Below the pieces are notes generated by a model, which saw only the letters and a program-made list of their open reading frames with translations, was not told the DNA's origin and did no database searches. From positions 124,001 through 188,000 of the forward strand of contig QQUE01000012.1 in assembly GCA_008501765.1 (NCBI GenBank): 64,000 bases of DNA, written 5' to 3'. How positions within the stretch are numbered: position 1 is the first letter of the stretch; each line of letters starts with the position of its first letter. The DNA comes from Calditrichota bacterium. Its GTDB lineage: Bacteria; Zhuqueibacterota; Zhuqueibacteria; Zhuqueibacterales; Geothermadaptataceae. A program made the translations under genes and the position numbers. Shown piece by piece: positions 8,601 to 28,221 of the stretch.

Positions 8601-8747
8601 AAGAGTTACGGTGGGGGCGGTCAGGTCCGGAAACACATCTACCGGTAATTGAAACGTTATAATTGCTCCGGTAATAAAAAAAGACAGCGCCGCCAGCAAA
8701 ACGATCAGTCTGTTTTTGAGACTGATCTGCATTAATTTATCAAGCAT
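5664..8747 (-). CDS. Heavy-metal efflux RND pump, inner-membrane component (CusA/CzcA-like)
   Basis: 1027 residues, normal for the HME-RND family. The N-terminal helix is followed by FPDLTAPTVTLLTEAHG and the porter segments. Helix 4 carries the proton-relay acids Asp403, Asp404 and Glu410 in VLVDDAIIYVENVHRR. By eye alignment with CusA, Met570 and Met622 match the metal-site Met573 and Met623, while the Met672 position is His664, followed by Met665 (RIDHMLSG). A His-rich stretch HSMGSHAHEME precedes Met622. The pump would export a metal ion from periplasm or cytosol with the adaptor and channel encoded just upstream. Cu(I)/Ag(I) or a mixed-specificity ion is plausible; the exact metal is not proven. 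AAAAGG precedes the ATG. It is the last gene of the operon, ending at a terminator. Confidence 0.9.
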   Translation of the reverse strand: MLDKLMQISLKNRLIVLLAALSFFITGAIITFQLPVDVFPDLTAPTVTLLTEAHGFAPEEVEMLVTFPLETAVNGASGVRRVRSTSIQGLSTIWVEFEWGTDIFKARQIVNEKIQGLQNALPVGVDQPILAPVTSIMGEIMLVGLTSDSTSAMDLRTIADFNLRRRILAVPGVAQVLVYGGETKQYQVQIDPWQLKNYHLSLDQILLAVARTNVNAAGGIFVQSGKEYLIRGLGRIENISQLENTVVTMRDGVPLLLGEVAKVKITAATKLGEASINNHRGIMLVISKQPDANTMELTGRIELVLAESKTTLPSDITLHTDIFKQSDFINLAIENVVAALRDGAILVIIILMLFLANARTVIISITAIPLSLIMTMLVLKMLDLTVNTMTLGGLAIAIGVLVDDAIIYVENVHRRLRQNAIKPTAEQRPFFDVVSDASAEIRTPIVMATFIIIVVFLPLFFLSGVEGRMLRPLGLAYVVSIFSSLLVAVTVTPALSSFLLRKTGMREEREPWIVRTLKNVYRPSLDWALQRSGFIIVMAVLLIFAVLATLPFLGRSFLPEFNEGTFNISMATVPGTSLEESDKIGQMVETILLSHPAVKSTARRTGRTELDEHSMGSHAHEMEVQIDLSQIKKKELLEELRTDLSIVPGTIIAIGQPISHRIDHMLSGTRANIAIKIFGPDLYKLRSLADQIETQMKDIEGIVDLSKDQQTDVPQVRLKVNRDNLTLFGLTAADVDEMIDIAFLGLPVSQVYDGQNRHDLVVRYAPQFRSDLDAVRNSLIDTPTGAQVPLKMVTDIQVDKGPNYISRENVQRKIVVQANVADRDLLSVVDDIKNKIGENVVLPQGYYVEYGGQFESAAEATRTITLLSILSILAIFVALYLEFGNFRQSFLVMVNLPLALIGGVIALFFSEGIITIASMVGFITLFGIAVRNGIIMVSHYNYLMEVEDKSLREAVVQGSSERLNPIMMTALTTGLALLPLALAMDQPGSEIQAPMSIVILGGLLTATLLNMIVIPVLFEKWGVRIKN

Positions 8748-8774
8748 ATTTTTTCCTTTTTACAATTTTTCAAC

Positions 8775-10286
8775 TCAATGCGCGTGCGGGTGACCAATCT
8801 CTTCTGAACTCGAAGCAAGTTTCACTTGATAACCGCCGGTTTTAACGACACGCTCCCCGCTTTGAACACCGCCAGTAACCGGTATAAATCCCTGATAAAT
8901 CGGCCCGGTTTTTACCGCCCGTTTCTCAAACGATTCGCCACCAAGCTGGATATACACGGTTTTTTGGCCGTTGTCATCATAAACTGCCGAGGATGGAACG
9001 GTTAGTACATTTGTCGCTGGTGTGGTATAAATTTGTGCCTGAAAAGTCTGTCCAATCAGCAGTTGCCTGCCGGCATTGTCAGCTTCCATCAAAATTGTTA
9101 AGGTTTGTTTTTCCGGATCGAGAATTTCACCACGGTTTATCAATTTTAAATGGCTCTGCTCAAAAAGAATCATTTTTTCACTTCCGGGAACACTGACCGA
9201 TGCACCGGAAATCTGAGCCAGTTTTGCCGCCTGTTCTGCAAATACCTCGATGCTCAACCACACCTTCGATGGATCAACAATGCTAAACAAATTTTGATTG
9301 CGATCGATGTTTTGTCCCGGCAGCACGGTCACATCAGATACGATGCCGTTTATTGGCGCCGTGATAAGAAAATTCTGTGTTTGTGAATCGTAACGCATGC
9401 TGCTATTTTTGGAATCAAAATAGTTTGAGAATCCCGCTTTGCGCACATCGAAGTTTCGTTTTGCCTGCTCAAATTCGCGGGCAGAAATTGCCTTACGCAC
9501 CTGCAGACGTTTTGCACGCTGGAACTCCGTTTTTGCTTGTTCATATTTGAGATATATTTCAGCCCAACTATTGCCTGCAGCCAGTGGTGGTACCAGCACT
9601 GCAAGTGTTTCGCCTTTTTTGACCTTTTGACCGGGATTTACGAGTTGACCGGCTGCTGCAATGCTAATTATTCCTTCCACAGGTGAAACGATTTGCGCGA
9701 ATGACGCGGGGCGTGGCCGCACTTTTCCAATGCCATTCACGGTCGATTTTACATTGCGTACACGGGCTTCCTCGGTGGCAAATTCCATTTTCCACTGTTG
9801 CTCTTTCAGAAAAGAGATTTCATCGGTCGCTGGTTCTTCAACGCCAGCCGGAATATCCGCAGCCGATGAATATACTGCAAAAGTACCAATTAAGAATTCT
9901 TCCTTTGCCTTGGGTCCGGTATAACTCAGGCTGAAATTATATTTTCCTGAAGTTTCAAATGTATACGTCGGAGTGAAAATGCCCTCCCGCAATAATTCAT
10001 CTTTATCAAATTTTATCGCAGAGCCATCTGCTTTCTCGAAAAAAAGTGTCACCTTGCCGGCTCGAACAGGCTGGAAATCTGCCAGAGTTGTCAGGTGAAT
10101 GATGAACTTAATCTCTGCTGCAACGACCGCTGTTTCGTATTCCATAAATAGTTCCATCGACTCTGTCCACTGCGTGACTGCAATCGCTGGAACCTCATTT
10201 TCTGCCTCCGCATTTTCATGTTCGTGGGATTGGCAGCCATAAAAAATCAGCCCTGACAGGGCCAAAATAATGATTCGTTTAATCAT
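8775..10286 (-). CDS. RND efflux periplasmic adaptor (membrane fusion protein), lipoprotein
   Basis: A CusB/CzcB-type adaptor that links pump and outer-membrane channel. Features in order: signal with lipobox ending IFYGC (Cys18), a His/Glu-rich segment (SHEHENAEAE), an extra N-terminal beta domain of ~150 residues, then the barrel-sandwich halves (IVSPVEGIISIAAAGQLVNPGQKVKKGE and FLITAPINGIVSDVTVLPGQ) around an alpha-hairpin, a beta-barrel and a membrane-proximal domain. It ends GHPHAH, possibly metal-binding. I chose ATG 10286 over the in-frame TTG at 10298 because GAGGA lies at the right distance and overlaps that TTG. The gap from the TolC-like gene is 12 bases and to the pump 27, so the three are an operon. 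Confidence 0.88.
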   Translation of the reverse strand: MIKRIIILALSGLIFYGCQSHEHENAEAENEVPAIAVTQWTESMELFMEYETAVVAAEIKFIIHLTTLADFQPVRAGKVTLFFEKADGSAIKFDKDELLREGIFTPTYTFETSGKYNFSLSYTGPKAKEEFLIGTFAVYSSAADIPAGVEEPATDEISFLKEQQWKMEFATEEARVRNVKSTVNGIGKVRPRPASFAQIVSPVEGIISIAAAGQLVNPGQKVKKGETLAVLVPPLAAGNSWAEIYLKYEQAKTEFQRAKRLQVRKAISAREFEQAKRNFDVRKAGFSNYFDSKNSSMRYDSQTQNFLITAPINGIVSDVTVLPGQNIDRNQNLFSIVDPSKVWLSIEVFAEQAAKLAQISGASVSVPGSEKMILFEQSHLKLINRGEILDPEKQTLTILMEADNAGRQLLIGQTFQAQIYTTPATNVLTVPSSAVYDDNGQKTVYIQLGGESFEKRAVKTGPIYQGFIPVTGGVQSGERVVKTGGYQVKLASSSEEIGHPHAH

Positions 10287-10298
10287 GATTTTCCTCAA

Positions 10299-11519
10299 TT
10301 AAAATGTGACCAAATTCTGTCCGCTAATGGTTTCCAGTTCGAAAATGGCCTGGTAATATTCCGTCAATTGTATCGTGTACATTTTACTGCCGGCACGAAC
10401 CGATTGAATGGCGCTTAAAAACTCAGGCAGCGAAAGCGCTCCTTCTTCATAAGCAGCTCGCAAATCGTCTGCAATTTTATCGCTCTGTAGTTCGAAATTA
10501 TTCCTGCGCAACAGTTCTGAATTGGTCTGAATAATCGCAATCAGGTTGTCGAAATTGGCGAGTATTTGGCGTTTATAGGCCGCGTTTTCAGTTGATTGAA
10601 TGGCGCTTTCAACTTTTAGCTTTTCGATCTGCGGCCTGTTCCAGTTGAAAAAAGGCAGCGGGAGAGAAAAACCTAAAACATAGCCCTGCCAACCGGGATT
10701 TATTTTTTTATAACCGCCTTGCAGAGCTATCGCTGGCACGATGCCGCGTTTTTCAAGTTTTATCCGCTCGCCCAAATTCGCCAGTCTGGACTCTGCTGCC
10801 TGCAATCCCGGATGGTTTTGCAGGAATATTGGCTGAGCAGGCGCATTGAGCTGGACACTTTTGAACCCGATAGAATCCGTCAGCATTATTTTACTATCTG
10901 AGCTCATTCCGAGAAAGTATCTCAATCTATTCGCGGTCTCCCGGTGATTTTGCTCCGTTTGCAATAAATCAGCCTCCAGCTCAAAAAGACTCATCGAAAG
11001 TAACTTCGCTTCCAAGTTTGAGATGGCACCTTCTTCGTGCCTGGCCTGAATAGCTGCCGACAAATCACGCATCATTCCCTTTAATCCTGCAAGCTGCTGC
11101 TTTAGATTTTGCAGCAATTTCAGCTGAACATATTCGTTGCGGGCAGCGGCCAGCAATTGATTCACTTTATGTCGCTGCTCAAATTTCGCCGATTCAATTG
11201 CAGATTGCCATGTTTTCCGGTTTTGCCAATAGTACCATGGCATCGCGATTGTCTTGCCAATAAACAGCATCTGCTCGGTTTCTTCGACGCCGCTGTCTTT
11301 CACCTTTTCCAGGGCAAAATTCAGTTCCGGATTGGACCATTGCAAGGCGGCATCGCGTTCAAATTTTGTTAATTCTAAACGCGCGTTTATTGCTTTAAAT
11401 TGTGGGCTGGATTGCTCAATTAAACGGGGCAAATCTTCGAAGGCCACCGCTAATTGATTTTCCTGCGCGACCAGGCTGCCGGCCACGCATAAAAATATAA
11501 ATATACGCAGGATGGACAC
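10299..11519 (-). CDS. TolC/CusC-family outer-membrane efflux channel
   Basis: 406 residues with a signal peptide (about 1-18) and the two-fold OEP repeat: long amphipathic helices (HKVNQLLAAARNEYVQLKLL..., RQILANFDNLIAIIQTNSELL) around beta segments such as GYVLGFSLPLPFFNW. The family forms trimeric outer-membrane ducts. It begins with GTG at 11519, backed by a strong GGAGG 6 bases upstream. Together with the adaptor and pump it forms a complete tripartite exporter. It is shorter than E. coli TolC but typical for CzcC/CusC-like channels. Confidence 0.88.
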   Translation of the reverse strand: MSILRIFIFLCVAGSLVAQENQLAVAFEDLPRLIEQSSPQFKAINARLELTKFERDAALQWSNPELNFALEKVKDSGVEETEQMLFIGKTIAMPWYYWQNRKTWQSAIESAKFEQRHKVNQLLAAARNEYVQLKLLQNLKQQLAGLKGMMRDLSAAIQARHEEGAISNLEAKLLSMSLFELEADLLQTEQNHRETANRLRYFLGMSSDSKIMLTDSIGFKSVQLNAPAQPIFLQNHPGLQAAESRLANLGERIKLEKRGIVPAIALQGGYKKINPGWQGYVLGFSLPLPFFNWNRPQIEKLKVESAIQSTENAAYKRQILANFDNLIAIIQTNSELLRRNNFELQSDKIADDLRAAYEEGALSLPEFLSAIQSVRAGSKMYTIQLTEYYQAIFELETISGQNLVTF

Positions 11520-12209: not shown

Positions 12210-12947
12210 TCAAATAGAAACAACTTTCACAGCAATCGCAGTCAAATTATCCATGGCGCCTTCGCTGTAGCATTTTTGGCGGATGGCTTTGAGCATTTTA
12301 TTGAGATCTTTGGGAAAACGACTGGATGCCGCTACCAAATCAGCCTCTGAATAGTAACGGGAGACCCCGTCCGAGCAAAGAAAAAACAGGTCTCCGGCCT
12401 TCAATTTGACATTCAAAATATCAGCATCAACAGCCTCTTTCACACCCAGGGCTTTGGTAATTATGTGGCTGCCTTTAAATCCGGCAGCATCGACTTTCTT
12501 TCCTTTAAATTTATCGAGCCAGCCTTGCAACTTGGAGTGGTCTTTGGTCAATTGGGTAATTTTGCCACCCCGAATTACGTACACGCGGCTGTCGCCCACG
12601 TGGCCAACGGCGGCCTGGTTTCCGGCAATCGCGATCATTGCAATTGTTGAAGCCATGTGTGTATTTTTTTTCTTGCCGGCTGCAAAAATCTCCCGGTTTG
12701 CTGCCGTAATCAGAGCTTCGACGGCGAGGGCGATATTATTTTCAGAGGGCGCTTCCCGGTTGATTATTTGTTCGATGGTTTTCACAGCAGTTTTGCTGGC
12801 AACATCGCCGGCATCAGCCCCGCCAACCCCATCCGCAACAACAAATACGCCCCTGTTTTCAGCCACGAGATAACTGTCCTCATTTACCGCAGTTTTGGGA
12901 TTGAGTCCCTTGTCGGTAAATGCCGCAGTCTGCGTGCTAATGCTCAA
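12210..12947 (-). CDS. PP2C-family Ser/Thr protein phosphatase (PstP-like)
   Basis: 245 residues containing all PP2C motifs: NED at 22-24, VADGVGG at 37-43, GHVGDSRVYVIRGG, LFFLCSDGVSRY and the final DNLTAIAV metal-binding Asp. It dephosphorylates Ser/Thr phosphoproteins in the cytosol with two Mn/Mg ions. It starts with TTG at 12947 behind GGGAGGAG and overlaps the end of the FtsW/RodA gene by 11 bases, suggesting translational coupling. Its place at the end of an FHA-FHA-PBP-FtsW run matches the actinobacterial pstP neighbourhood, so likely substrates are cell-wall regulators. No cognate kinase lies inside the window. Confidence 0.88.
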   Translation of the reverse strand: MSISTQTAAFTDKGLNPKTAVNEDSYLVAENRGVFVVADGVGGADAGDVASKTAVKTIEQIINREAPSENNIALAVEALITAANREIFAAGKKKNTHMASTIAMIAIAGNQAAVGHVGDSRVYVIRGGKITQLTKDHSKLQGWLDKFKGKKVDAAGFKGSHIITKALGVKEAVDADILNVKLKAGDLFFLCSDGVSRYYSEADLVAASSRFPKDLNKMLKAIRQKCYSEGAMDNLTAIAVKVVSI

Positions 12948-14478
12948 TTTGCTCCTCCCGCAAACCGTTCCTGTGAGAAATCCCCATGAGAAATCCTATG
13001 ATAATAAAAGAAATAAGAAATGAAAAACCTCCGCGACTGATAAAAGGCAGTGTGATCCCGGTCAACGGAATAAGTTTGATAACCCCACCGATATTGACAA
13101 AAACCTGAATTGCAATCATCGAGGCAAAACCGGTTGCGAGCAACTTTTCGAAATCGTTCTTTGCGCGCAGAGCAACGCGAATGCCGAGAAAAAAGAGCAG
13201 CAGATAAAGCAACACTATTAACGCGGCCCCGATAAAACCCATCTCTTCGGCAATCGCTGCATAGACAAAATCGGAAACGATGAGCGGAATGTTGGTCGGA
13301 TAGCCCAGCCCGAGCCCCGAACCGGCAAACCCGCCGGCATGCAGCGCAAAAAACGAGTTCATTATTTGGTAAACCTGATCCCACCAGGCTGAATCGTGGG
13401 GCAAAGCCCAGATATCCGCCCAGATTTGAAATCGTTTCAAAGCGTGTGAGGGCACCAATCCCTCCAGCAATAAAATTGCTTTTGAAGAAATGGCAATGAA
13501 CGCGATTCCACCAAACAAAAAACGGTATTTCCGGGTGACAACAAAAATCATCACAATCACTAAACCACCGTAAATTATCACCTGACCAAAATCTTTAAGC
13601 ACGATAAACAAAAATTGCGGGATGAGCCAGATTAGCAGAAATGGCCCCCAGGTGACGAGAAAACTTTGCAGTTTTTTCCCTTTGAGAACAACCTTCTTTT
13701 TGGTCAATTCCTCTTTAAAAAGCGCAAAATATCCTGAGAGAAATATGATTATCGTTATTTTAAATGCTTCCCACGGGGTCATTTGATAAACAAACCGGCC
13801 GCGGGTTTTTACTTCGCTCAATCCCACAAAAATGATCAGCAGCAAAACCGTTATCGCAACCCAGAAAAAGGGCCGCGATAGTAATTGCATGAATTTCTCT
13901 TTTTCACATTTTTTAATGATAAAAATGATGGAGAAAAGTGCAATTAAATAGGAAACGATCAAACGTGTCCAGCCGGGAACCCCGGCGAAGAACTGGCGCA
14001 TCATCGCGCTGAATTGCCACTCATCCAATTTTAAAAGCTGTTTTGCTTCTGTTTGAATCGACTCAAGGCTGCGTTCGTCGGCCCTTGTAACTGTGGAATC
14101 CTGATCGTGCGTCATCTGAGCCCCGGTCGAGTCTGTCGTTGCCTTTTTCAGCGCAGCCGCCGAATATTGTTTGATGAGCGCATCCTGAAAATTTGTATTT
14201 ATGGCGGAGCTGATGCGGTACTGCACCACAAACCCAATGCCCGTGAGCAACGCAACAACCACTAAAATAGTAAAATCCCCCTTGTAGCTCGATTTGAGAA
14301 TAAAATAAACTACAAAAAACATACTCATCATCAACGTATTGCGAATGAGTATGGTAGCGCTGGGATCGTAACCGCGCGCGTTACCTGCGACATACACCGC
14401 AAACATGCCGACCACGGTTATAAACAACGCCAGCAACAGGCCGAATGCGGGATTGATTTTATTGTTTTTTTGATTCAT
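12937..14478 (-). CDS. FtsW/RodA/SpoVE-family peptidoglycan glycosyltransferase
   Basis: A polytopic SEDS protein. Diagnostic C-terminal motifs are visible: QVYQIMNSFFALHAGGFAGSGLGLGYP, DFVYAAIAEEMGF and NIGGVIKLIPLTGITLPFISRGG. SEDS proteins polymerise lipid II together with a class B PBP, here the adjacent upstream gene. An unusual ~90-residue insertion after helix 4 (about residues 95-180, starting RISSAINTNFQDALIKQYS) is polar and should face the periplasm. The start is uncertain: ATG 14478 (MNQKNNK) or ATG 14490 (MTAPMNQ), both overlapping the PBP gene end and neither with a clear ribosome site. Longer extensions would read through the PBP gene. Confidence 0.87.
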   Translation of the reverse strand: MNQKNNKINPAFGLLLALFITVVGMFAVYVAGNARGYDPSATILIRNTLMMSMFFVVYFILKSSYKGDFTILVVVALLTGIGFVVQYRISSAINTNFQDALIKQYSAAALKKATTDSTGAQMTHDQDSTVTRADERSLESIQTEAKQLLKLDEWQFSAMMRQFFAGVPGWTRLIVSYLIALFSIIFIIKKCEKEKFMQLLSRPFFWVAITVLLLIIFVGLSEVKTRGRFVYQMTPWEAFKITIIIFLSGYFALFKEELTKKKVVLKGKKLQSFLVTWGPFLLIWLIPQFLFIVLKDFGQVIIYGGLVIVMIFVVTRKYRFLFGGIAFIAISSKAILLLEGLVPSHALKRFQIWADIWALPHDSAWWDQVYQIMNSFFALHAGGFAGSGLGLGYPTNIPLIVSDFVYAAIAEEMGFIGAALIVLLYLLLFFLGIRVALRAKNDFEKLLATGFASMIAIQVFVNIGGVIKLIPLTGITLPFISRGGFSFLISFIIIGFLMGISHRNGLREEQIEH

Positions 14479-16111
14479 CGGTGCTGTCATTAAAATAGCC
14501 CAATTCATGTGCTTTGAGATAAATCTGCTTGGCCACCGGTGCTGCGGCTGCTCCGCCATATCCGGCGCCTTCAGCGATTACCGCGATGGCAATTTTGGGA
14601 TTTTCAACCGGTGCAAATGAAATAAAAACAGCATTGTTGACGATTTCAACTGCACTGGTACCATCGTCCTGCTTCACCACCTGATTAATTTCCGCCGTGC
14701 CTGTTTTGCCGCCAACTTCCACTTCCTGCATACGCATTCGCCAGGCCGTTCCGCCCCGGGCCCAAACGACTTCACGCATCATTTTTCTGACTTTAGCAGC
14801 CGCTTCTGCAGAAACAACCCGGTTCCACTCTTCCGGCGGTTCATCCAATTCCAGCCGCGGTTTCATCAAAACACCATCGTTGGCAATCGCCGCAGCGATC
14901 ATTGCCAATTGCAGCGGTGTCGCTAAAACTTTTTCCTGGCCAATGGAAGACCAGGCCAGTTCATGGGCCGTCGGCGTTTCGGGAAATGAACTACGCATTG
15001 TGATTATGCTTTTTAAAAATTCCGGGCGCGAAGTATTCCATTGCACCGCCTGGTTAAAGCCAAACCGTCCGGCGACCGCATGCAACATCGAATCACCGAC
15101 AACCACACCGAGATGGGCAAAATAGGCGTTACTGGATTTTACCAAGGCCCGTGTCAAGTCAATTTGGCCTTGACCGCGCCAGCGTTGACCGCGCTCCGCA
15201 TAGCTGTGCCGTTCGTGATCGTGTACGCGTTTCCGCCGCACACCCGGGGGACGGTAGCCACGCCCGTCCAGAGTCCACACAGGGCTGATTCCCAATTCCG
15301 TGGCTGCCGCAGCAACAATGACTTTAAAAGTAGAACCCGGCGGATATCGGCCTTTTAAAGCCCGGTTATAAAGCCGTTTGCCATCTTCGTCAGCGACGAT
15401 TCGCGCCCAGGCGGCATCCACTGAAACCGAATCAGGGTGAAAACTGGGGGCACTCACCAAAACCAGGACGTCTCCCGTCGCAGGCGCGATGGCGACCACA
15501 GCGCCTTTGTTGGCTCCGAACGCTTCATAAGCGGTTTTTTGCAGTTCATAATCGATGGTTAACGCAATATCATTGCCTACGGACTGAACTCGAAAATATT
15601 TATTGTTGATAAAATTATCTTCTTCGGCTGCACTGGAGCGGGTGCGCCCCATCAAGCGGTCGAAATAATGCTTTTCCATGCCGGATTTATCACGTTCAAC
15701 ATCAGAATAACCAATGAGATGGGAAGTGGCTTCACCGAGTGGATAATACCGCCGCGGGAGCTCGCCTTTGGTGGCGTCAGTATAACCAGCCAACACTTTA
15801 GAATCGTCATGATTGCGGTCGTAAATTGTGCCTTTAATCGTTGTCGCTTCGATTATCCACGGCCGCGGATCGTGCAATTTCCTGGTGGCAAAAAAGTAGG
15901 CATTGCCGATAAAAAGCTGCCAATAGGCCTGGTAAAGCAGAAGTGAGCCAAAAGCGAAAATAAAAACCCATAAAACGACAGCCATTTCCTTGCGGTGTAA
16001 AAAAACGAACACCTCACTGAAATTTGAAATCGTTACATAAAAAAGGCGAAGCAGATAGGCCCCAATAACTAAAAATAATAAATATTTCAGGATGATTAAA
16101 ACAAGCAGCAT
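14459..16111 (-). CDS. Class B penicillin-binding protein (PBP2/PbpA-like transpeptidase)
   Basis: 550 residues. Two N-terminal membrane helices (about 5-25 and 44-62), then a short dimerisation region and the transpeptidase domain with its three active-site motifs: Ser260-Thr-Phe-Lys263, Ser326-Ser-Asn328 and Lys469-Thr-Gly-Thr472. It cross-links peptidoglycan stems in the periplasm as partner of the adjacent SEDS protein. It is shorter than E. coli PBP2 and resembles actinobacterial PbpA in size; having two N-terminal helices instead of one is less common. It starts 5 bases after the upstream FHA gene and overlaps the SEDS gene, so it is firmly operonic. Confidence 0.9.
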   Translation of the reverse strand: MLLVLIILKYLLFLVIGAYLLRLFYVTISNFSEVFVFLHRKEMAVVLWVFIFAFGSLLLYQAYWQLFIGNAYFFATRKLHDPRPWIIEATTIKGTIYDRNHDDSKVLAGYTDATKGELPRRYYPLGEATSHLIGYSDVERDKSGMEKHYFDRLMGRTRSSAAEEDNFINNKYFRVQSVGNDIALTIDYELQKTAYEAFGANKGAVVAIAPATGDVLVLVSAPSFHPDSVSVDAAWARIVADEDGKRLYNRALKGRYPPGSTFKVIVAAAATELGISPVWTLDGRGYRPPGVRRKRVHDHERHSYAERGQRWRGQGQIDLTRALVKSSNAYFAHLGVVVGDSMLHAVAGRFGFNQAVQWNTSRPEFLKSIITMRSSFPETPTAHELAWSSIGQEKVLATPLQLAMIAAAIANDGVLMKPRLELDEPPEEWNRVVSAEAAAKVRKMMREVVWARGGTAWRMRMQEVEVGGKTGTAEINQVVKQDDGTSAVEIVNNAVFISFAPVENPKIAIAVIAEGAGYGGAAAAPVAKQIYLKAHELGYFNDSTDESKKQ

Positions 16112-16116
16112 GAAAA

Positions 16117-16824
16117 TTACTCAATCGTTAAAGTCATGATGACCGGATCTTTTTTGCAGAATTTAATGAAATCGCCAGGCTGGAATTCCCGGCTGCCTTT
16201 CACCGGTTCAGTCTCGTCATTTATAAATGTCCCATTGGCGCTGCCTTCGTCGACAATTGTCATCCGGGTTTCTGAAATAAAATAGAGCGTGGCCTGATGT
16301 TTGGATATATTTTGATACGGCAGGCAAATATGTGCCGAGGAAATTCGACCAATTTTATAGGTCTCTCCGGGTGATAGATGCCATGTCGCCCCGGTTCCCT
16401 CACCCTGGATGATTTTAAAATAACACTGCGTTAAGTTTTGTGGTTCCTGCTCCTCAGGGGAGATTGTACTCTGGATATCAATTTTTTTGGCTGAAACGGT
16501 GGAAGATGAAGTTATTTGCAGGGCTATTTTAGCCGTATTTAGAACATAATCTTTTTCAACAATATATTTGTGAATACGATCGATTGTGTTTTGTTCTATT
16601 TTTTTTATATGCCGCGCATGTTTAATAAAAACATTGTTATTCACCGCAATATCAAAATGGTCGGGCGCGATGATGCGATCCGGGTCGGTAATATCCAAAT
16701 TTCTGTCGATGACGTCTTTTAGTTCACCAAAAAGACGCTCCTGATCCAGGGGATCGAGAAATCGCCAGAATATTCCATAGACAGATTTTTTAACGTTGCT
16801 ATCAATATTTTTCGAAACACTCAT
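16117..16824 (-). CDS. DUF3662-like + FHA-domain protein
   Basis: 235 residues. Residues ~20-110 resemble the DUF3662 domain found at the N-terminus of actinobacterial FhaA (APDHFDIAVNNNVF...). Residues ~140-235 form an FHA domain with the phosphothreonine-binding residues Gly159-Arg160, Ser174-Lys-His176 and the NGT of SANGTFIND (197-199). FHA domains bind pThr peptides, so this protein should read Ser/Thr phosphorylation. It lies immediately upstream of the PBP gene (5-base gap) and 71 bases after a second DUF3662-FHA gene. It has no signal or membrane segment, so it is cytosolic. Confidence 0.82.
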   Translation of the reverse strand: MSVSKNIDSNVKKSVYGIFWRFLDPLDQERLFGELKDVIDRNLDITDPDRIIAPDHFDIAVNNNVFIKHARHIKKIEQNTIDRIHKYIVEKDYVLNTAKIALQITSSSTVSAKKIDIQSTISPEEQEPQNLTQCYFKIIQGEGTGATWHLSPGETYKIGRISSAHICLPYQNISKHQATLYFISETRMTIVDEGSANGTFINDETEPVKGSREFQPGDFIKFCKKDPVIMTLTIE

Positions 16825-16895
16825 GGGTCAATCCGAAATGGTTCACTATTTTAATCCTGACCGGCAGCAGAATTCTGGAAGTTGGTTATTCTCAA

Positions 16896-17768
16896 TTAAT
16901 TTGGGATTATCATTAACGCATAATCGATGATTTTAAGTTCATCACCTGGCGATATCTGCACCTCTTTTTGCAGCTCCAATTCCTCGCCGTTCAGCATCGT
17001 GCCGTTAATGCCTGTCGGAAGGAGAAAAACGGCATTGTCGCGTAGATTAATCACAGCATGAGAGCGGGAGATGGAGAAATCTGCACTTTGCAAGACGATA
17101 TCATCCTTGCTGGAGCGCCCAATAGTTGTCGTTTCCTTGATCAGCGGAATTTCTTCTTTGTGATTTTCACTTTCAACTATCAGCGTGTATTTCGTATCCG
17201 GTTGCGGCATTTGCACGATGGTTTTTTGCTCGTCTTCGGGCAAAACAGTATCTTCGTCCTCTTCGATTACCGTTGGGCGAAAATCGTCATCATCGGCCAT
17301 TTCCGGCTGGACAGGCGTTGCAGGCGCTGGTGGTTGCTTAATCGGCGGTGACTGGACTGGCACCGGATCGCCCTCTTTTTTGGTGTGATGCGTAATTTTA
17401 AATTCACCCTTATCCAACGATTCATCTGTTTTGAATTCGATAATTATTACTTGTTTGCTCTGCTCGGGATTGATCTTGCGCATTTCATGATAAATTTCTT
17501 CCCGGAGTTCATTGATGATGACATCTTCAACTTCGATCCGTAACTTTCGATCGATCTCATTAAAAAATATCGTGTAAAAATTTGGGATGAGGATTTTCCG
17601 GCCAACCACATCAACGTTTTGTTTCATCAATGCTTTCAGTTTTTTCGAAATCTCCTTATAGGGTATGCGCTCGTTGCCTGCCACCTGGTCCTGTTCTGAG
17701 GTTGCGTCATCATCTTCCAGGCTGGCTACCCTTTTCCAGGCTTTGCCAAATTTACCTTTTATACCCAT
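16896..17768 (-). CDS. DUF3662-like + FHA-domain protein (FhaA-like)
   Basis: 290 residues. The DUF3662-like region spans ~35-115 (ILIPNFYTIFFNEIDRKLRIE). An acidic/proline linker at ~130-185 contains Thr residues next to acids (RPTVIEEDEDT, EQKTIVQ) that could be kinase targets. A C-terminal FHA domain at ~193-290 has GRSSKDD, SISRSHAVI and NGTMLNGEEL. This mirrors FhaA of actinobacteria. I chose ATG 17768 (MGIKGKF), preceded by GGAAGG; the GTG at 17783 is less likely. It is the first gene of the peptidoglycan part of the run, 44 bases after the LPP20-like gene. Confidence 0.83.
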   Translation of the reverse strand: MGIKGKFGKAWKRVASLEDDDATSEQDQVAGNERIPYKEISKKLKALMKQNVDVVGRKILIPNFYTIFFNEIDRKLRIEVEDVIINELREEIYHEMRKINPEQSKQVIIIEFKTDESLDKGEFKITHHTKKEGDPVPVQSPPIKQPPAPATPVQPEMADDDDFRPTVIEEDEDTVLPEDEQKTIVQMPQPDTKYTLIVESENHKEEIPLIKETTTIGRSSKDDIVLQSADFSISRSHAVINLRDNAVFLLPTGINGTMLNGEELELQKEVQISPGDELKIIDYALMIIPN

Positions 17769-17812
17769 AGTTGCCTTCCACAATTCACTTAATCGTACTC
17801 AAAAATATAAAA

Positions 17813-18622
17813 TTATTTCTTCATTTTTACCAGGACGTGACAAATTTCATCTTTTGGATCAAACCACCGTGATACCACTCGAGAATTGATATTGGTGATT
17901 CCCAAATCTTCATAACGTTTGTCTTGCCCTTCCACGTCCGATTGTTGCACCGAATTGACATTCAGTAAAATAGTCCGGGCCAGATTGTGCCGTGCCCGCT
18001 GCTCGGCTTGCAGCCAACTGCTTTTTTCATGAAAATAGAGAGGCGCCAGCCCGGTTGCATAAATAAACTCAGAATTTTCCGGCAATTCCTTTATCCAATC
18101 TGGCGAGGATTTGCTGCGGGTTTTTCGGAGTTTAAACAGCGAAGCGTCATCGGACGGCGGTTCATTGGTTGCCAAAACCATGACTATTTTATCCGTTACA
18201 AAAGTATCCGCTGCAACGAGAACATTTTTAGCCAATGCAGTTGCGGATGAATCGAAAACTTCCTGCACATCGTTCCCGATCCAAAAAACGCCGATTTCCG
18301 TGCTCCAGTAAAACTGACCGCCGCTGTACTGGCAGGTTGTTTCTTTGGCAAAAGTCTCACAGCCATTTAAGTAAGCCTGAGTCACAGCCGAATCTGCATA
18401 AAAAGCCGGATCGGCATAGCCGGCGACGGCGTGGGAAACATGAAGTTTTTCCGGGTTCAAAAACCATTCTGGATAGACCTGGCCGTAGCCAGAATTAACG
18501 GAAACCAGCAGACTAAAAAACAGAAAAAACGGGATGAAATACCCGCTCTTTCTTTGATTTAAAAATATTAAACCCGGGGTTCTCACTTTAAAAAAATCGA
18601 GCATTTTTAATGCCTTTTCCAT
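17813..18622 (-). CDS. Secreted LPP20/FlgP-like protein
   Basis: 269 residues with a basic N-terminus, a hydrophobic segment (~28-45) and cleavage near SGYGQ. The mature part starts VYPEWFLNPEKL, the 'P-x-W' opening typical of LPP20-like domains, and contains alternating Ala-rich helices (SWLQAEQRARHNLARTILLNVNSVQQ). This suggests a tandem of two LPP20-like alpha/beta units. LPP20 proteins are outer-membrane-associated; FlgP of Vibrio is a known member. It has no lipobox Cys, unlike the downstream-named neighbour at 18667. An alternative ATG at 18604 has AAAAGG at good spacing. Specific function is unknown. Confidence 0.6.
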   Translation of the reverse strand: MEKALKMLDFFKVRTPGLIFLNQRKSGYFIPFFLFFSLLVSVNSGYGQVYPEWFLNPEKLHVSHAVAGYADPAFYADSAVTQAYLNGCETFAKETTCQYSGGQFYWSTEIGVFWIGNDVQEVFDSSATALAKNVLVAADTFVTDKIVMVLATNEPPSDDASLFKLRKTRSKSSPDWIKELPENSEFIYATGLAPLYFHEKSSWLQAEQRARHNLARTILLNVNSVQQSDVEGQDKRYEDLGITNINSRVVSRWFDPKDEICHVLVKMKK

Positions 18623-18666
18623 GAATTAATACAACCCCGGGGTTCAACAAACGTCCCGGACAATCA

Positions 18667-19236
18667 TTAATTGGATTGATCCTTTTTCCAGTTCTCGAAA
18701 TTTTTCACTTCATCTTCAAGTTCTTTAAAAGTTTCAGAAGCTCTAAAGCGGGTGTACAGTCTTTTATTGCTCTTGAGTTGTTCCATCAATGCCTGGTTTG
18801 CAGCGCCGATCGGGTACTCGATTAAAATATAAGCCCGCCAGAATTGCCCATCTTTTTTAACCGTTTTTTTCGCAATTCTGCTGCCGCTGAGAGATGTTGA
18901 TACGACGGTTTTACTCGCCTGTGTAAACATTTGCAGCAATTCTGCATCGTCATTCACACCGACTTCTTCGTCGAATCGTTTTTGCAGGCCGGAAATTCTT
19001 ACTTCTGCCTGGCGACCAATCTCGGCACGAGCGCCGGTTGATGCTTTATCAATGGCCATTTGCATATCCCGTGATACAGCTGTGTTGGTTGCCAAAAGAT
19101 AATTCGGGTCTGATTTTGATTCCAGGAACCACTCTGGCACATCGCCACCAACATCTGTCATTGCTTTTGGCCCACCGCATCCAATCAGTAATGCTGCAGC
19201 GATGACAATTAAAAAAAGTGAATAAAAACGACGCAT
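18667..19236 (-). CDS. LPP20-family lipoprotein
   Basis: 189 residues. A lipobox ends ALLIGC at about Cys19-20, then GGPKAMTDVGGDVPEWFLES opens the LPP20-type domain; an Ala-rich helix (DKASTGARAEIGRQAEVRISGLQKRF) and strands ending FWRAYILIEYP follow. A charged C-terminal helix contains a Lys/Glu-rich end. Outer-membrane-anchored lipoprotein is the likely location. I chose ATG 19236 because TTGGAGAG lies directly upstream; the longer frame from 19248 lacks this support. It is 44-46 bases from both neighbours in the same operon. Confidence 0.72.
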   Translation of the reverse strand: MRRFYSLFLIVIAAALLIGCGGPKAMTDVGGDVPEWFLESKSDPNYLLATNTAVSRDMQMAIDKASTGARAEIGRQAEVRISGLQKRFDEEVGVNDDAELLQMFTQASKTVVSTSLSGSRIAKKTVKKDGQFWRAYILIEYPIGAANQALMEQLKSNKRLYTRFRASETFKELEDEVKNFENWKKDQSN

Positions 19237-19282
19237 GATTCTCTCCAAAGATAAGTTATTAGTTTATAAGCTGTGCATTTAA

Positions 19283-20746
19283 TCAAGCACGAATTTTCAA
19301 TATTTTTGGTTTTACGTTTTGCAATTTGGGCAGCGTCCGCCCATAGGGTGCATTGACGTAAGTTGGATCGCAAATTATATATTTTTTCCTCTCAAACTCG
19401 ACAAAAGCGCCTTCTGCCGGATCGCTAAAATTGACCGCCGTTGCGATGTGTCCCGGATAGTCGAGGCCAACCACATCCAGTTTTAACAAATTTCGCACAA
19501 GATAGGCAAATAAAATTGAGCGGTCTTCGCAATCGGAAAAGGGGTAGTGCAGCGTCTCGATGGGGAAAAAATATTTCTCACGGGTAAATTGAGCCTGATC
19601 TGTTTTGTAATCAAAGGCCGTTTGCACGAATCGCAGCAAAATGTTTACAGCTTCTTTTTCAGATTTATCCTTTACCACGGGTCGTAAATTATTCAACAGA
19701 GCCTGATGCAGGCTCAACGGTGGTTGGGCGCTAAAATAAACGTCCAGGTCTGTTTGGGGGTAAAAGTGTAAAAAATCGACCAAATTTTTATTAAAATGCA
19801 ATGTAAGGCTATATGCCTGACTACCGTATTCAAATCGCAGTTTTCTTTGGCTGTTGACATAATTCAACTTCGGCAATTTATCCAGATGCAAGTCGATTGC
19901 CCTGGTGGCGCCACGGTAGGTGCCGTCATAGGTAGTCAAAGACATCGGGCGGGCAGGAATTGCATCGAATGGAATTACGTAATAGCGTTTGTTCTCAATG
20001 GTAAAATAAGGAACCGAAAACACGGAGTTCACCGTAGGCAGTAAAACATAAATATCGCTGCTGTACCCGACTCTCGCGTCGTAGCCGGATTTGATCAGAA
20101 CAAACCAGATAAACAAATTTTGTTGCGATTCCGAGCGTGGAAAAACACCGGCAGCCAGTTTTTTGAGAAAAACACAATAGCCCCAATCGTTAAGTCCAAG
20201 CCGGGTTTTATATTGTAAGGCATTTTCGATATAAGGTTCGTAATCACTTTTACTCATGTCCTGCCAGAATTGAGCAATACCCTGCTTGTCGTAGCGTGCC
20301 GAAGAGGCGGCTCGAAATTTTTCGCCGTGAGGGAATACAACAGGTGTGTGAAAAAAATGAAATTTAAGCGCCCGGACCTCGGCCGGCAAATCGGGCAGGT
20401 CTGGTTTTGGGTCAATATTCGGAGCTGGAACGTCCTTAATTATTTTAACAGGTGGTTTGGGCTTTCCGGCAGGTAATTTTTCCGGAACCGGATCAGCCAC
20501 CGGTTTCGTGACGGGCTTTGGCGTTTTGTCGACCTTGATGCCGCGCATCAATTGCATTTCCCGCCACTCACGCTGGAGAAATTGGCCAAATTCCCGGTCG
20601 CGTTCATCTTTATAATCCTGCAGTTTTTGCTGCTCTTTCTTCAGCCAATCGTCAAACTTTTCCTGTGCCAATGCAGATGGTATAACTATTAAAATGCATA
20701 AAAACAGGAACACAAAATTTTTAACCAAATTTCTGTAGTATTTCAT
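19283..20746 (-). CDS. Secreted transglutaminase-like cysteine protease-fold protein
   Basis: 487 residues. Signal peptide (about 1-27, cleaving at ALAQ), a charged coiled-coil-like stretch (~30-65), a Pro/Lys-rich linker (~73-120), a ~250-residue body of unknown fold, and a C-terminal transglutaminase-like core. In that core the triad candidates are Cys406 (SDCEDRS), His433 (YPGHIATAV) and Asp460 (CDPTYVNAPYG). Such domains act as peptidases, amidases or cross-linkers; here the periplasmic site and gene company suggest a role on envelope proteins or peptidoglycan peptides. The ATG at 20746 gives the natural signal peptide; the frame extends further upstream without need. Confidence 0.75.
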   Translation of the reverse strand: MKYYRNLVKNFVFLFLCILIVIPSALAQEKFDDWLKKEQQKLQDYKDERDREFGQFLQREWREMQLMRGIKVDKTPKPVTKPVADPVPEKLPAGKPKPPVKIIKDVPAPNIDPKPDLPDLPAEVRALKFHFFHTPVVFPHGEKFRAASSARYDKQGIAQFWQDMSKSDYEPYIENALQYKTRLGLNDWGYCVFLKKLAAGVFPRSESQQNLFIWFVLIKSGYDARVGYSSDIYVLLPTVNSVFSVPYFTIENKRYYVIPFDAIPARPMSLTTYDGTYRGATRAIDLHLDKLPKLNYVNSQRKLRFEYGSQAYSLTLHFNKNLVDFLHFYPQTDLDVYFSAQPPLSLHQALLNNLRPVVKDKSEKEAVNILLRFVQTAFDYKTDQAQFTREKYFFPIETLHYPFSDCEDRSILFAYLVRNLLKLDVVGLDYPGHIATAVNFSDPAEGAFVEFERKKYIICDPTYVNAPYGRTLPKLQNVKPKILKIRA

Positions 20747-20855
20747 AATACGCCCCGAATAAAGTGCCTGAAATGGCTGGCGTGGGAAATAAGAATTGAT
20801 TATCCCGGGCAACGAACCCGGGATAATATTTTGGAATTAATTCATGAATCGAAAA

Positions 20856-21461
20856 TTAAAAAGCAAGACCACCGGTAACTCCAACAAATGAGGTATTTTC
20901 TTCTTCGGTGAAAATGAAGCGAACAAGGCCTTGCAGAATGATGTTAAGCCTGTCGCCTGCAGGAAATTCCAATCCGGCACCGGCAGCCAGACCCCATTTT
21001 TTATCTTCAAATTCAAACTCTGAAGTGCTGAAAAAATCTTCAAATTTAGTTTTCTCATTAATCACATTGTAAGTTCCCATCCCAAAGAGAAAAAGTTGCG
21101 TATTCGATTCGGCGGATGTTAAATAGGGTCGAATACCGATGCCGTATTCAACGATTGTCGCTTCCGATTCGATGGTAACATCGTCAGGGGTCAAACCAGA
21201 TTCTTCGTAAAAAGCATCTTCATCGACCGTGAATCCTTCGAATGCAAAACCAAAACTTATACCCACCGTTGGAGATGGAAACATAACATATTGACCGTGA
21301 AAGCTGCCACCGACTTTGTAAAAATCTTTAAATGAATCGGGGGAGAGTGGAAATGCAGCACCACCAAAAATTTCCCACTGGCTACTTCTTCCTTGTGCAA
21401 AAACCTGCGTTGCGGACAACAATACGATGATTATCAAAAAGAGAGCGTTTCTCAGTTTCAT
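20856..21461 (-). CDS. Outer-membrane beta-barrel protein
   Basis: 201 residues. A signal peptide ends at QVFAQ, then eight or so amphipathic strands rich in Gly and aromatics (WEIFGGAAFPL, VGISFGFAFEGF, YGIGIRPYL, LFLFGMGTYNV, WGLAAGAGLEF, IILQGLVRFIF, SFVGVTGGLAF). The C-terminal Phe is typical for BAM-inserted barrels. It resembles OmpA/OmpW-like small barrels of FCB bacteria. A strong GAGGAGG lies before ATG 21461. It sits 40 bases after the CsgG/FlgT-like gene. Confidence 0.8.
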   Translation of the reverse strand: MKLRNALFLIIIVLLSATQVFAQGRSSQWEIFGGAAFPLSPDSFKDFYKVGGSFHGQYVMFPSPTVGISFGFAFEGFTVDEDAFYEESGLTPDDVTIESEATIVEYGIGIRPYLTSAESNTQLFLFGMGTYNVINEKTKFEDFFSTSEFEFEDKKWGLAAGAGLEFPAGDRLNIILQGLVRFIFTEEENTSFVGVTGGLAF

Positions 21462-21501
21462 TCCTACCTCCTCATACCTTCATAATGAATGCACAATTAA
21501 C

Positions 21502-22701
21502 CTATTTTGTAATAACCCGATCCAGCACCTGCGGAACACCATTTTTCGATTGTGTAATCGATGCAATAGAATAACCATCAAATACTTCAACCAGCCGGAC
21601 CTCACAAATTTGATTGAAAATTTTACCGATGACTTCTTTTGTTTTGGGGTGAATTATCGAGTCCCCTTCGCGAAAAACGTAACACTTCATCCCTTTTTGG
21701 GCGCCCTGACTTATGCCCAGATCAAGGGTGAGCCGTGTATTTTGCAGGCTGACAACAACACCACTGATGACTGGAATATCCTGTTTAATTTTCCCCGCAA
21801 CATCCTGTATCATATCACTTAAAGCCAGAAGACTAATTTTCGTAGCAAATGCATCTTGTGCCGATAAAATTTCAGCAGACTCGGTATCGACGAGCCGCGC
21901 GTCGATGCTCACCGAATTTCTCGAGCGCACAATGCTACCGCAAACTACGGTTTCCACCCCCACGGCTGCTCCGATTCGAACAGCCGTTGATACATCGACT
22001 ATTCCGGAGAGGCCAAGTTTTTGTTCCGATAAAATGCGCTCCAGTTGGGCTCTTTCCACAACTTTGAAGCGGTTCAAATTAACGAAAGCGGTCGTCAGTT
22101 TATCCAAAAGGTCGATATCGCCAAATTCATTGCCAACACCCTTCGTTTCAAACGGCAGGATGGCAACACTGAGTCGTTCACCAACATTAATTTCTTCGCC
22201 CGCATCCGGGCGTGGCGTAACCGTTGGCTGGGATTTGCTGGTATAATCTGATTTATCAGGTTCAGGGGGTGCTTCCTCTTTTGCTGGTGGGATATAAGTT
22301 GGCTCCGGCGTTACATGAGAGGAAGAAACTTTCATATTCTGCACATTACGGAGAAATCTTCGCGCCCGATTAGAGCGTGATTGATTTTGTGAACGCAGCA
22401 AGTATTCACTTGCCCGGGTATAGTCACCCAAATGGTAATAGCAAATGCCCATTTCCCTGTTTGGATAATAGGAAATAAACACTGCACCATAAGCCCTTGT
22501 TTTTTCTTTATCTTTGCCTTTTTTATTCAAAGCCGAGGAAAAATGCTGGATGGCTCCGCGCCAATCCTGAATTTTCATAGCTTTAAGTCCCATTGAATAG
22601 GATTGATGCCACTTCGGCTGAGCAGTGAGATTAGAATTTATCGTAAAAAAGAAAAGGCTGACGACCAATGCCATTGACAAGCGCTGAAGCACTCGGTGCA
22701 T
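21502..22701 (-). CDS. TPR + CsgG/TolB-N (FlgO/FlgT-like) periplasmic protein
   Basis: 399 residues. A signal peptide (~1-27) is followed by TPR-like helices (MGLKAMKIQDWRGAIQHFSSAL, EMGICYYHLGDYTRASEYLLRSQ) and a Pro/Glu-rich linker. The CsgG/TolB-N-like domain starts at about 175 (SVAILPFETKG...LTTAFVNLNRFKVVERAQLERIL) and includes AVGVETVVCGSIV. The last ~85 residues (LTLDLGISQGAQKGMKCYVFREGD...) look like the FlgT C-terminal beta domain. It has no lipobox. CsgG/FlgO/FlgT proteins build outer-membrane or flagellar-basal rings; no flagellar gene is nearby. I chose ATG 22701 for its GGAGG. It is first gene of the ten-gene leftward run. Confidence 0.75.
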   Translation of the reverse strand: MHRVLQRLSMALVVSLFFFTINSNLTAQPKWHQSYSMGLKAMKIQDWRGAIQHFSSALNKKGKDKEKTRAYGAVFISYYPNREMGICYYHLGDYTRASEYLLRSQNQSRSNRARRFLRNVQNMKVSSSHVTPEPTYIPPAKEEAPPEPDKSDYTSKSQPTVTPRPDAGEEINVGERLSVAILPFETKGVGNEFGDIDLLDKLTTAFVNLNRFKVVERAQLERILSEQKLGLSGIVDVSTAVRIGAAVGVETVVCGSIVRSRNSVSIDARLVDTESAEILSAQDAFATKISLLALSDMIQDVAGKIKQDIPVISGVVVSLQNTRLTLDLGISQGAQKGMKCYVFREGDSIIHPKTKEVIGKIFNQICEVRLVEVFDGYSIASITQSKNGVPQVLDRVITK

Positions 22702-23340
22702 AGCTTCCTCCAAAAAAATCAGCATGTTCAAATATTTGAGAATCGTTTATTTTTATATTAAAACGATAAAAATCAAATTTTTATGATTTGGTCTATCGAT
22801 GAGTTCTGTGTTTGATAATTTTGTGCTGCGTACCAGTTTAAAAATACGTGTAATATTTAAAATTGCAAGCACTATCTATTTCGAACCGTGAATATTGTGA
22901 CTTTTAAGCAAAAAAATGAATCCGGCCCATGGCATAACACTAAAATAGGCTGTGCTAATTTAGACTTTTACCGAAATTTTCAAACTTAAATTTTACACAA
23001 TCTGGTTTAATATTCAAATCGTTCCTATTTTACTCTAAAAATGATTATTCCGGTGTGGCAGCACATGATCGCCTGCTGACTTTGTTTTTATAATTCCGAG
23101 TTCAGAATTCGTAGTGGTTTGTGATTTCCAATATTCGAGATATAAAAATTTTTCCCTATTTTTCAATCGTGACATACCAATCAAAAATGCGGTTGAATCC
23201 CCTGACTTTGATGCAAATCAAGAAAAAAAAGTAAGGTTCTAAAAAGTTGAAAATAAAATTCTATTGCATTTTCTCTCAAAATAGCGCTCATTATACAATT
23301 AAATGAATAATACAAATCAATCGATAAATGGAGGGGTATA
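22702..23340. promoter_or_regulatory. Divergent intergenic region between two LPP20/CsgG-type genes
   Basis: About 640 AT-rich bases separating the leftward CsgG/FlgT-like gene from the rightward LPP20-like lipoprotein, so it should hold both promoters. An inverted repeat ATCGTTT-N12-AAACGAT is at 22742-22767, 40 bases before the leftward start. TGGAGGGG at 23328-23336 is the ribosome site of the rightward gene. No reading frame looks coding. Confidence 0.45.
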
Positions 23341-24729
23341 ATGAAGTTAAAAACCCTGTTTATAACCACCATTCTCTCCCTGGTCGTGTTAAATTGCGCA
23401 CAATCAACTTTAGGTGGGGAGAAAAAACCGAAGTGGGTGAAAAAGCGACCGGTGACCCGTCTTTTCTATATTGGCATTGCTGCAGTTGAAAAACAAGTCG
23501 GCAGCCAGGATCATATTCAGGCAGCGAAAAGTCAGGCGCTGAACGATCTGGTTTCCGAGATTGAAGTGAAGATTTCAGGCGAGTTTATCAACCAGGTGAG
23601 CGAACGGGCCGGCATGGTTGAAGACGAGGTAAAATCAATTGTGCGGGCGCAAACAAAAACCGCAATTGAAGGCTATGAACTGGTTGATACCTGGGATGAT
23701 AAAAAAACATATTGGGTTTATTATCGCCTCTCCAAAGGCCTTTGGGAAGAGATTCAACGGGAAAAACGCGAAAAGGCCATGCGGCTGTCGCTCAGCATGT
23801 ATTCCACGGGCATGAGCAAATTGGCAGCGAGGGATTACGGCAGTGCCCTCACATTTTTCAGCCGCGCACTGCAACCTATTCAGCCCTACCCTGCTGAACC
23901 TTTAGAGACGACATATAACGGCAACAAAATATATTTGCAGGAATCAATTACGCTCGCAATCCAGGATTTGGTTAGCCGAATTGAGCTCATTCCCCCTGCC
24001 GGAAACAACGATGTAAAAATGGGGCAAACCATCCGCCGGCCATATACCGTGAAAACAGTTTACAACGACGATTCTGGCCAACAGATTCCGGTCAGCCATC
24101 TCTCATTGAAATTTTCGTTTGTCAAAGGTGCGGGAAAATTAATTTCCACGGGCAGGTCAAATGCGCAGGGTGTTGCACTTTGTCGTTTGTCCAAAGTGAC
24201 AGCACAGGACAAAATCCAAATCGTGAAGGCTGAAATGGATGTGGACGCCTTTGTGCAACAAGACAGTGTCGGCACAATTACGAAAAACACTATTTCAAAT
24301 ATGCCCTTTCCCAGCGCAAATATCGTACTTTCAGTCACGGGATTAACGGCTTTTATTGAAGCAAAAGAGCTCAATCTCGGCCGGCAGATAAAATTACCGC
24401 AAATTGAACCCGCCATCAAAAACAGCTTGCTGGAAAATGGATTCACACTGACAGATAATTTGTCGAAAGCCGAAGTGATGATAAAAGTTGATGCGCAGTC
24501 GCGGCAAGGCGGACGTTCCCACGGCATTTCAGTTTCCTATGTTGATTTGAACTTGTCTGCCATCGATATGCGCAGTGGTGAAGAAGTGTACAAAAACTCG
24601 CTCAATGGCGCCAAAGGCTTTGATTTGAGCTCCTTTGACAAAGCCGGAATCAACGCTTTTCAGGAAGCGGCGAAAAAAATTACCCGTGAAATGATGCCGC
24701 AGTTTGTGGCAAAAATGCAGGGGAAGTAA
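23341..24729 (+). CDS. LPP20/FlgT-N-like lipoprotein with LptE-like C-terminus
   Basis: 462 residues. A lipobox ends VVLNC (Cys19). Residues ~30-140 form an LPP20-like domain (PKWVKKRPVTRLFYIGIAA..., AAKSQALNDLVSEIEVKIS) that ends YWVYYRLSKGLW. A short TPR-like helix pair follows (MRLSLSMYSTGMSKLAARDYGSALTFFSRAL). A beta-sandwich lies at ~220-310. The C-terminal ~110 residues (LPQIEPAIKNSLLENGFTLTDNLSKAEVMIKVDAQS...) recall assembly-factor domains such as LptE/DUF4384 types. It is probably an outer-membrane lipoprotein that works with the divergent CsgG/FlgT-like operon, with which it shares domain types. Confidence 0.7.
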   Translation: MKLKTLFITTILSLVVLNCAQSTLGGEKKPKWVKKRPVTRLFYIGIAAVEKQVGSQDHIQAAKSQALNDLVSEIEVKISGEFINQVSERAGMVEDEVKSIVRAQTKTAIEGYELVDTWDDKKTYWVYYRLSKGLWEEIQREKREKAMRLSLSMYSTGMSKLAARDYGSALTFFSRALQPIQPYPAEPLETTYNGNKIYLQESITLAIQDLVSRIELIPPAGNNDVKMGQTIRRPYTVKTVYNDDSGQQIPVSHLSLKFSFVKGAGKLISTGRSNAQGVALCRLSKVTAQDKIQIVKAEMDVDAFVQQDSVGTITKNTISNMPFPSANIVLSVTGLTAFIEAKELNLGRQIKLPQIEPAIKNSLLENGFTLTDNLSKAEVMIKVDAQSRQGGRSHGISVSYVDLNLSAIDMRSGEEVYKNSLNGAKGFDLSSFDKAGINAFQEAAKKITREMMPQFVAKMQGK

Positions 24730-28184: not shown

Positions 28185-28221
28185 AGCTTTTCTCCTATTG
28201 TTTTTTTTCAAGTTTCAATAA

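Follow-up and report, generated by a model that had tools for sequence, protein, structure and literature searches.

The window analysed here, a 64,000-nucleotide stretch of the genome of a Calditrichota bacterium (G000:C3:124001-188000), contains ten minus-strand genes between positions 12210 and 22701. They form two modules: a wall cassette (12210-17783), encoding two FHA proteins (FHAa and FHAb), a class B penicillin-binding protein (PBP), a SEDS glycosyltransferase and a PP2C phosphatase, and an envelope block (17813-22701), encoding a CsgG protein, an outer-membrane protein (OMP), a transglutaminase-like protein (TG), an LPP20-like lipoprotein and a further secreted protein, LPPb. The cassette is probably a horizontally mobile, phosphothreonine-regulated peptidoglycan synthase module, the relative in candidate phylum KSB1 of the actinobacterial fha operon, with the envelope block independent of it. 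The genome (5.9 Mb, 21 contigs), in which the run lies on a contig of 565 kb, has 'candidate division KSB1' metagenome-assembled genomes as its relatives. KSB1 is an uncultured phylum thought to be of the Gram-negative type. It has been placed within the FCB superphylum and has lipopolysaccharide genes (PMC9012183), in line with the FCB-type genome recognized in a first-pass annotation of the same DNA. Genomes are labelled G0xx, with G000 for the genome of the window and G069 for one of the same genus; L0xx denotes loci.

FhaA_N, the domain that begins both FHA proteins, was matched in 14 of 82 genomes of the KSB1 phylum and, among 14 control genomes, in Corynebacterium glutamicum only. The match in G017 was left out because it lies in an unrelated FHA neighbourhood. 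A profile of full-length FHAb retrieved 13 of the 82 genomes at E <= 1e-36, against >= 1e-9 for chance matches to the FHA domain only. The order FHAa-FHAb-PBP-SEDS-PP2C is identical in every complete KSB1 locus, across several families, and truncated loci agree with it; most FHAb-PBP gaps measure 3-6 bases, and overlaps are the rule among the PBP, SEDS and PP2C genes. One five-gene order across many families is far beyond chance, and the co-occurrence of these genes remarked on in the first-pass annotation thus reflects a conserved cassette. A contig search with the PBP alignment returned ten close relatives, all on KSB1 contigs, and is uninformative about other phyla.

The PBP motifs SxxK (S260/K263), SxN (S326/N328) and KTG (K469) are invariant in the alignment, as are the SDF motif of the SEDS protein (D430) in 12 sequences and the metal-site aspartates of the phosphatase (D39-G40, D193 and D233) in 10; PppA, followed by PstP, is the nearest PDB entry to the phosphatase, whose gene overlaps that of the SEDS protein. 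The phosphothreonine-site residues are conserved in FHAa and in FHAb (G159-R160, S174 and N197-G198). For FHAb the FHA fold was matched in the PDB; its structure model (predicted local distance difference test, pLDDT, 62) is too weak for the FhaA_N domain. Between its two domains, FHAa has a linker (residues 132-205) with a mean top-residue share of 0.47, compared with 0.76 in the domains. The conserved parts of the linker are KK 135-136 and two threonine motifs, T171-V-I-E and T188-I-V-Q; the general forms D-x(3-4)-T-[IVL]-[IV]-E and T-[IV]-[IV](M)-Q occur in 13/13 FHAa homologues. By sequence reading of its topology, the SEDS protein has two additional N-terminal membrane helices and an insert of ~70 amino acids (aa) in the first canonical periplasmic loop. 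The PBP apparently has two N-terminal hydrophobic segments; these, the extra SEDS helices and the loop insert are all kept across the cassette family.

G000 encodes the canonical pairs FtsW-FtsI (C6:76-81 kb) and RodA-PBP2 (C6:304-307 kb), and the cassette proteins are, judging from sequence, a third SEDS/class B PBP pair. We compared them with the fha operons of Actinomyces oris (L129), Tsukamurella (L128), Nonomuraea and Nocardia, which contain FHA, FHA, PP2C, SEDS, PBP and two kinase genes, and with a clostridial cluster from Monoglobus (L123). The KSB1 cassette SEDS profile scores 145-158 bits against fha-operon RodA versus 84 against G000 FtsW and 78 against G000 RodA. Trees group the cassette SEDS (support 100/99) and PBP (94/93) with the actinobacterial fha-operon proteins and separate them from FtsI, PBP2, FtsW and RodA of G000 and E. 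coli K-12. The likeness to the actinobacterial operon pointed out in the first-pass annotation therefore holds for the PBP and the SEDS protein.

Mapped onto an RpoB tree, the distribution of the cassette takes six gain or loss events, and strongly supported branches force five or more of them. Family f4, one clade by RpoB (100/100), is divided in the cassette tree built from PBP plus SEDS (99/98), which also pairs G034 with G063 in contradiction to RpoB. Because the distribution is patchy and the cassette tree conflicts with RpoB, these data suggest that the cassette moved between KSB1 families. Many losses with hidden paralogy would also explain the tree conflict; transfer is simpler.

Twelve protein-kinase domain matches are present in G000. 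One gene (G000:C3:116303-119116; L048 10303-13116) encodes a 937 aa protein with two tandem Ser/Thr kinase domains, both of which keep VAIK, HRD and DFG; a membrane helix is predicted in it, its C-terminal part is of periplasmic type by sequence reading, and it has an orthologue in G069. Beside it lies an SLT-LysM lytic transglycosylase gene (C3:119708-121189). The two genes come immediately after the PP2C gene in G069; in G000 they lie ~15-20 kb downstream of the cassette, behind some 15 kb that holds Na/Pi cotransporter, hydrolase and RND efflux genes. The RND genes form an operon at window positions 5664-11519 (AcrB-family pump, adaptor and OEP). An SLT-LysM gene adjoins or lies near the cassette in seven genomes, and a kinase gene adjoins it at six relatives' loci (L036, L038, L040, L043, L045 and L046). 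A PEGA kinase in G025 and a TPR kinase in G030 have the same position relative to the cassette. CHASE2-type kinases lie beside it in G067, G063 and G051, with CHASE2 orthologues in four genomes in all; the CHASE2 domain was scanned in the G067 copy, and the other copies are 61-65% identical to that copy over its full length. The fourth (G034) stops at a contig edge, which fits a placement before FHAa. In G067, G063 and G051 the kinase is preceded by a gene family whose start reads as LysM-type and whose G067 copy has a FecR domain, directly upstream of FHAa.

The statement in the first-pass annotation that no kinase lies in the run is literally true yet misleading, because relatives have kinase genes next to this cassette, and here they lie ~15-20 kb away. 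It had also proposed looking elsewhere for a PASTA or other Ser/Thr kinase: non-PASTA kinases were found near the cassette, and among the matches listed for the 13 genomes searched PASTA was on no kinase. In G000 the PASTA matches are the canonical FtsI-type PBP (C6:79536-79865) and a 279 aa PASTA protein. A PASTA kinase was thus not found as a cassette partner; the cassette kinases carry other domains.

These observations can be assembled into a putative mechanism. The SEDS protein and the PBP, with their observed genes, active sites and phylogeny, would act as a polymerase/transpeptidase pair. A membrane-bound Ser/Thr kinase, sensing through its periplasmic part, would phosphorylate cassette threonines, for which T171 and T188 in the FHAa linker are the candidate sites, given the kinases and motifs observed. 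As in GarA/OdhI, the FHA domains could then read the phosphorylated motifs. By analogy with the actinobacterial system, phosphothreonine binding by the FHA domains would recruit, sequester or switch the synthase or the lipid II supply, and the soluble PP2C phosphatase would reset the phosphorylation state. For comparison, mycobacterial FhaA has been proposed to exert such control through MviN (PMC11898655). The kinase would be the exchangeable part: some families would use a CHASE2 kinase, one a PEGA kinase and this genus the two-kinase protein. Cleavage by the lytic transglycosylase would make openings in the wall where new material is inserted.

An alternative is that the cassette SEDS and PBP are a vertically inherited elongation or division pair with the FHA and PP2C genes merely as neighbours, its regulation not being phosphothreonine-based. 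The presence of the canonical pairs, beside which a third pair may be specialised, would fit this, as would the loci with no adjacent kinase. Conservation of the FHA phosphothreonine-site and PP2C metal-site residues argues the other way, as do the complete cassettes, which never lose the FHA or PP2C genes, and the kinase genes that recur beside them; we regard this alternative as unlikely.

Several points nevertheless weigh against a mobile, phosphothreonine-regulated synthase cassette. Phosphorylation, the FHA ligands and the synthase activity are all things we infer, and a histidine of the FHA domain of FHAb is not kept by all members of the family. The partner kinase is a candidate, not a proven one, because three loci (L035, L041 and L044) have no kinase linked to the cassette and KSB1 genomes are kinase-rich, with 10-34 kinase-domain matches per genome in 12 of the 13 cassette genomes. 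Support in the PBP tree is slightly below the strong threshold, and the KSB1 rows sit on long branches, so exact placement is less certain than the supports imply. The cassette may also be of deep vertical origin and have been lost many times.

The first-pass annotation read all ten genes as a phospho-controlled machine joining the outer envelope and peptidoglycan. For the run to be one transcription unit or machine, with Ser/Thr phosphorylation coordinating outer-envelope lipoproteins with peptidoglycan synthesis, its compactness is favourable (gaps of 5-109 bases or overlaps, and 44 bases at the LPPb-FHAa junction). So are the genes that lie within a few kb of the cassette in G025 (L036 117-5285), where a PEGA kinase is followed by three CsgG-TPR genes and one for an OMP-like protein, a second and different case of CsgG-type genes near this cassette, the kinase gene within the envelope block of both G027 and G028, and the weak matches of the CsgG protein to LpoB models, both below cut-off (PF13036, 16.9 against 22.3; TIGR02722, 20.8 against 110.55). 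The comparison with relatives nevertheless makes it improbable. In no other genome examined do the envelope genes adjoin the cassette. G027 has the block on contig C71 (~14-22 kb) and the cassette on C38, at ~63-69 kb of 122 kb; G028 has them on C202 and C62, respectively; G048 has the block and no cassette; and in most cassette genomes TG and LPPb are not detectable. Such unlinked loci in related genomes are the outcome that the first-pass annotation had itself named as telling against its proposal. In G069 the CsgG-OMP-TG-LPP20-LPPb series is intact on C82 and is then followed by type III CRISPR genes (L076 12790-20000; Card1-like CARF, Cas10 and RAMP) instead of FHAa, which there lies at a contig end. 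A Cas10-like homologue with 40% identity and one in-frame stop is present in G000 at C3:388909-390615.

Contig separation thus unlinks the two modules outside the genus, and inside the genus the CRISPR genes of G069 indicate that the transcription unit is not a conserved one; a distant block-cassette linkage across those genes is possible in G069. We rejected a conserved envelope-wall machine on the grounds that the LPPb-FHAa junction is not conserved in relatives. The envelope block is independent and happens to adjoin the cassette in G000, where the 44-base junction would allow co-transcription. That the junction is absent from every other genome examined could also mean an assembly chimera, with the ten-gene run not real as written. 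The assembly has 21 contigs and the junction lies well within one of 565 kb, with no clear G+C step there, which makes this very improbable. A more far-reaching version of the mobile-cassette proposal holds that a phosphothreonine-gated third synthase of a diderm phylum, transferred between families, with a swappable sensor kinase and a GarA-like switch in which the FHA domains bind T171/T188 of the linker, was captured behind the CsgG/LPP20 block, coupling the production of the two layers; we consider it doubtful in this full form.

The ten open reading frames (Table 1) lie in the order first annotated, all on one strand and closely packed, as had been described. Using the likely starts, of which that of the CsgG gene lies behind GGAGG, the gaps from the CsgG end to the PP2C end are 40, 109, 46, 44, 44, 71 and 5 bases, followed by overlaps of 32 and 11. 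Pfam matches over cut-off comprise PP2C_2, FTSW_RODA_SPOVE, Transpeptidase, FHA (twice), FhaA_N (twice), CsgG and OMP_b-brl; the LPP20 and transglutaminase matches fall below it. Scans for promoters and terminators yielded about as many as expected by chance. Between the OMP and TG genes, a hairpin at 20827-20799 (12 pairs, 6 of them G-C, and a poor T tail) may act as an attenuator or a weak terminator.

Table 1. Genes of the wall cassette and the envelope block (window coordinates).
Gene product	Coordinates	Strand	Basis and remarks
PP2C Ser/Thr phosphatase	12210..12947	-	245 aa; PF13672 67.3 bits; no C-terminal membrane extension
SEDS glycosyltransferase, RodA/FtsW type	12937..14559	-	PF01098 186 bits; real start probably near 14490
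Class B PBP, PbpA-like	14459..16111	-	PF00905 179 bits; motifs; tree
FHAb, FhaA_N + FHA	16117..16824	-	PF12401 27.9 bits (cut-off 25); PF00498 53.4 bits
FHAa, FhaA_N + acidic linker + FHA	16896..17783	-	PF12401 33.6 bits (cut-off 25); PF00498 52.7 bits; likely start ATG 17768
LPPb, secreted protein	17813..18622	-	No Pfam match; low-confidence fold match; orthologues in block elsewhere
LPP20-like lipoprotein	18667..19248	-	PF02169 19.2 bits (under cut-off 25.9); lipobox-like IGCG near N-terminus
TG, transglutaminase-like secreted protein	19283..20812	-	PF04473 11.8 bits (under cut-off 20.5); likely start ATG 20746
OMP, outer-membrane beta-barrel protein	20856..21461	-	PF13505 31.3 bits
TPR-CsgG protein	21502..22731	-	PF03783 50 bits (cut-off 20.8); likely start ATG 22701

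Within the envelope block, the CsgG protein matches its G069 orthologue at 3.9e-207. LPPb occurs in 5 genomes and TG in 9; C428, H455 and D482 are kept in 8/8 members of the TG family. The LPPb model (pLDDT 54), too weak for a firm fold, has H. pylori Tip-alpha and Lpp20 as its nearest matches (E 0.006-0.015), and LPPb probably has an LPP20/Tip-alpha-like fold. That likeness and the transglutaminase assignment of TG are both plausible. The kinase genes inside the block lie at L077 9463-11718 in G027 (Pkinase and FGE-sulfatase domains) and at L078 7905-10283 in G028; in these two genomes the CsgG position is taken by a caspase (C14)-CARDB protein whose likeness to the CsgG protein of the window is confined to the N-terminal TPR part. 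Upstream of the block, window positions 23341-24729 encode a divergent LPP20-domain protein (37.1 bits, over cut-off), which is beside the block in G069 too, and positions 24984-28211 a 1075 aa secreted protein whose C-terminal region reads as a type IX-like sorting/FlgD-type region.

The fha-pstP-rodA-pbpA locus has been described as an actinobacterial trait (PMC6554272, PMC11898655), and our literature search found no description of the cluster outside Actinobacteria, which is weak evidence. A full kit in a presumed Gram-negative lineage, with an extra synthase pair, exchangeable kinases and evidence of transfer, would make this wall-control module portable. The cassette offers a natural comparison of kinase, FHA and phosphatase contributions alongside canonical divisome and elongasome pairs, and the FHAa linker provides concrete candidate phosphosites for testing.

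Among known systems, the actinobacterial operon fhaA-fhaB-pstP-rodA-pbpA-pknA-pknB, exemplified by M. tuberculosis Rv0020c-Rv0014c, is like the KSB1 cassette in having an FhaA_N-FHA gene first, a second FHA gene, a PP2C gene, and SEDS and class B PBP genes of the same clade, and in its linked Ser/Thr kinase, which many KSB1 loci share. The order PP2C-SEDS-PBP is, however, reversed to PBP-SEDS-PP2C in KSB1, where the second FHA protein also carries FhaA_N. The KSB1 phosphatases (244-285 aa) lack a PstP-like C-terminal membrane extension, whereas the open reading frames in the four reference operons have 324-514 aa. Unlike those of the actinobacterial operon, the KSB1 kinases lack PASTA and belong to CHASE2, PEGA or two-domain types; an SLT-LysM enzyme is a frequent neighbour, and the host also has FtsW-FtsI and RodA-PBP2. 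The Monoglobus pectinilyticus cluster resembles the cassette in an FHA gene directly before SEDS and PBP genes of the same broad clade. It differs in having a single FHA protein of at most 148 aa, too short for FhaA_N plus FHA, no PP2C gene, and SEDS before PBP. The envelope block resembles CsgG/LPP20/LpoB-type outer-membrane lipoproteins in its CsgG domain over cut-off, its LPP20-like proteins and its secretion or lipoprotein signals, but differs in its transglutaminase-like enzyme and barrel protein and in an LpoB match far under cut-off. Finally, FHAa shares with the GarA/OdhI switch a conserved threonine that precedes, within a flexible segment, an FHA domain with the same fold; the TVIE/TIVQ context, the extra FhaA_N domain and the setting in a wall-enzyme cassette set it apart, and self-binding is putative in KSB1.

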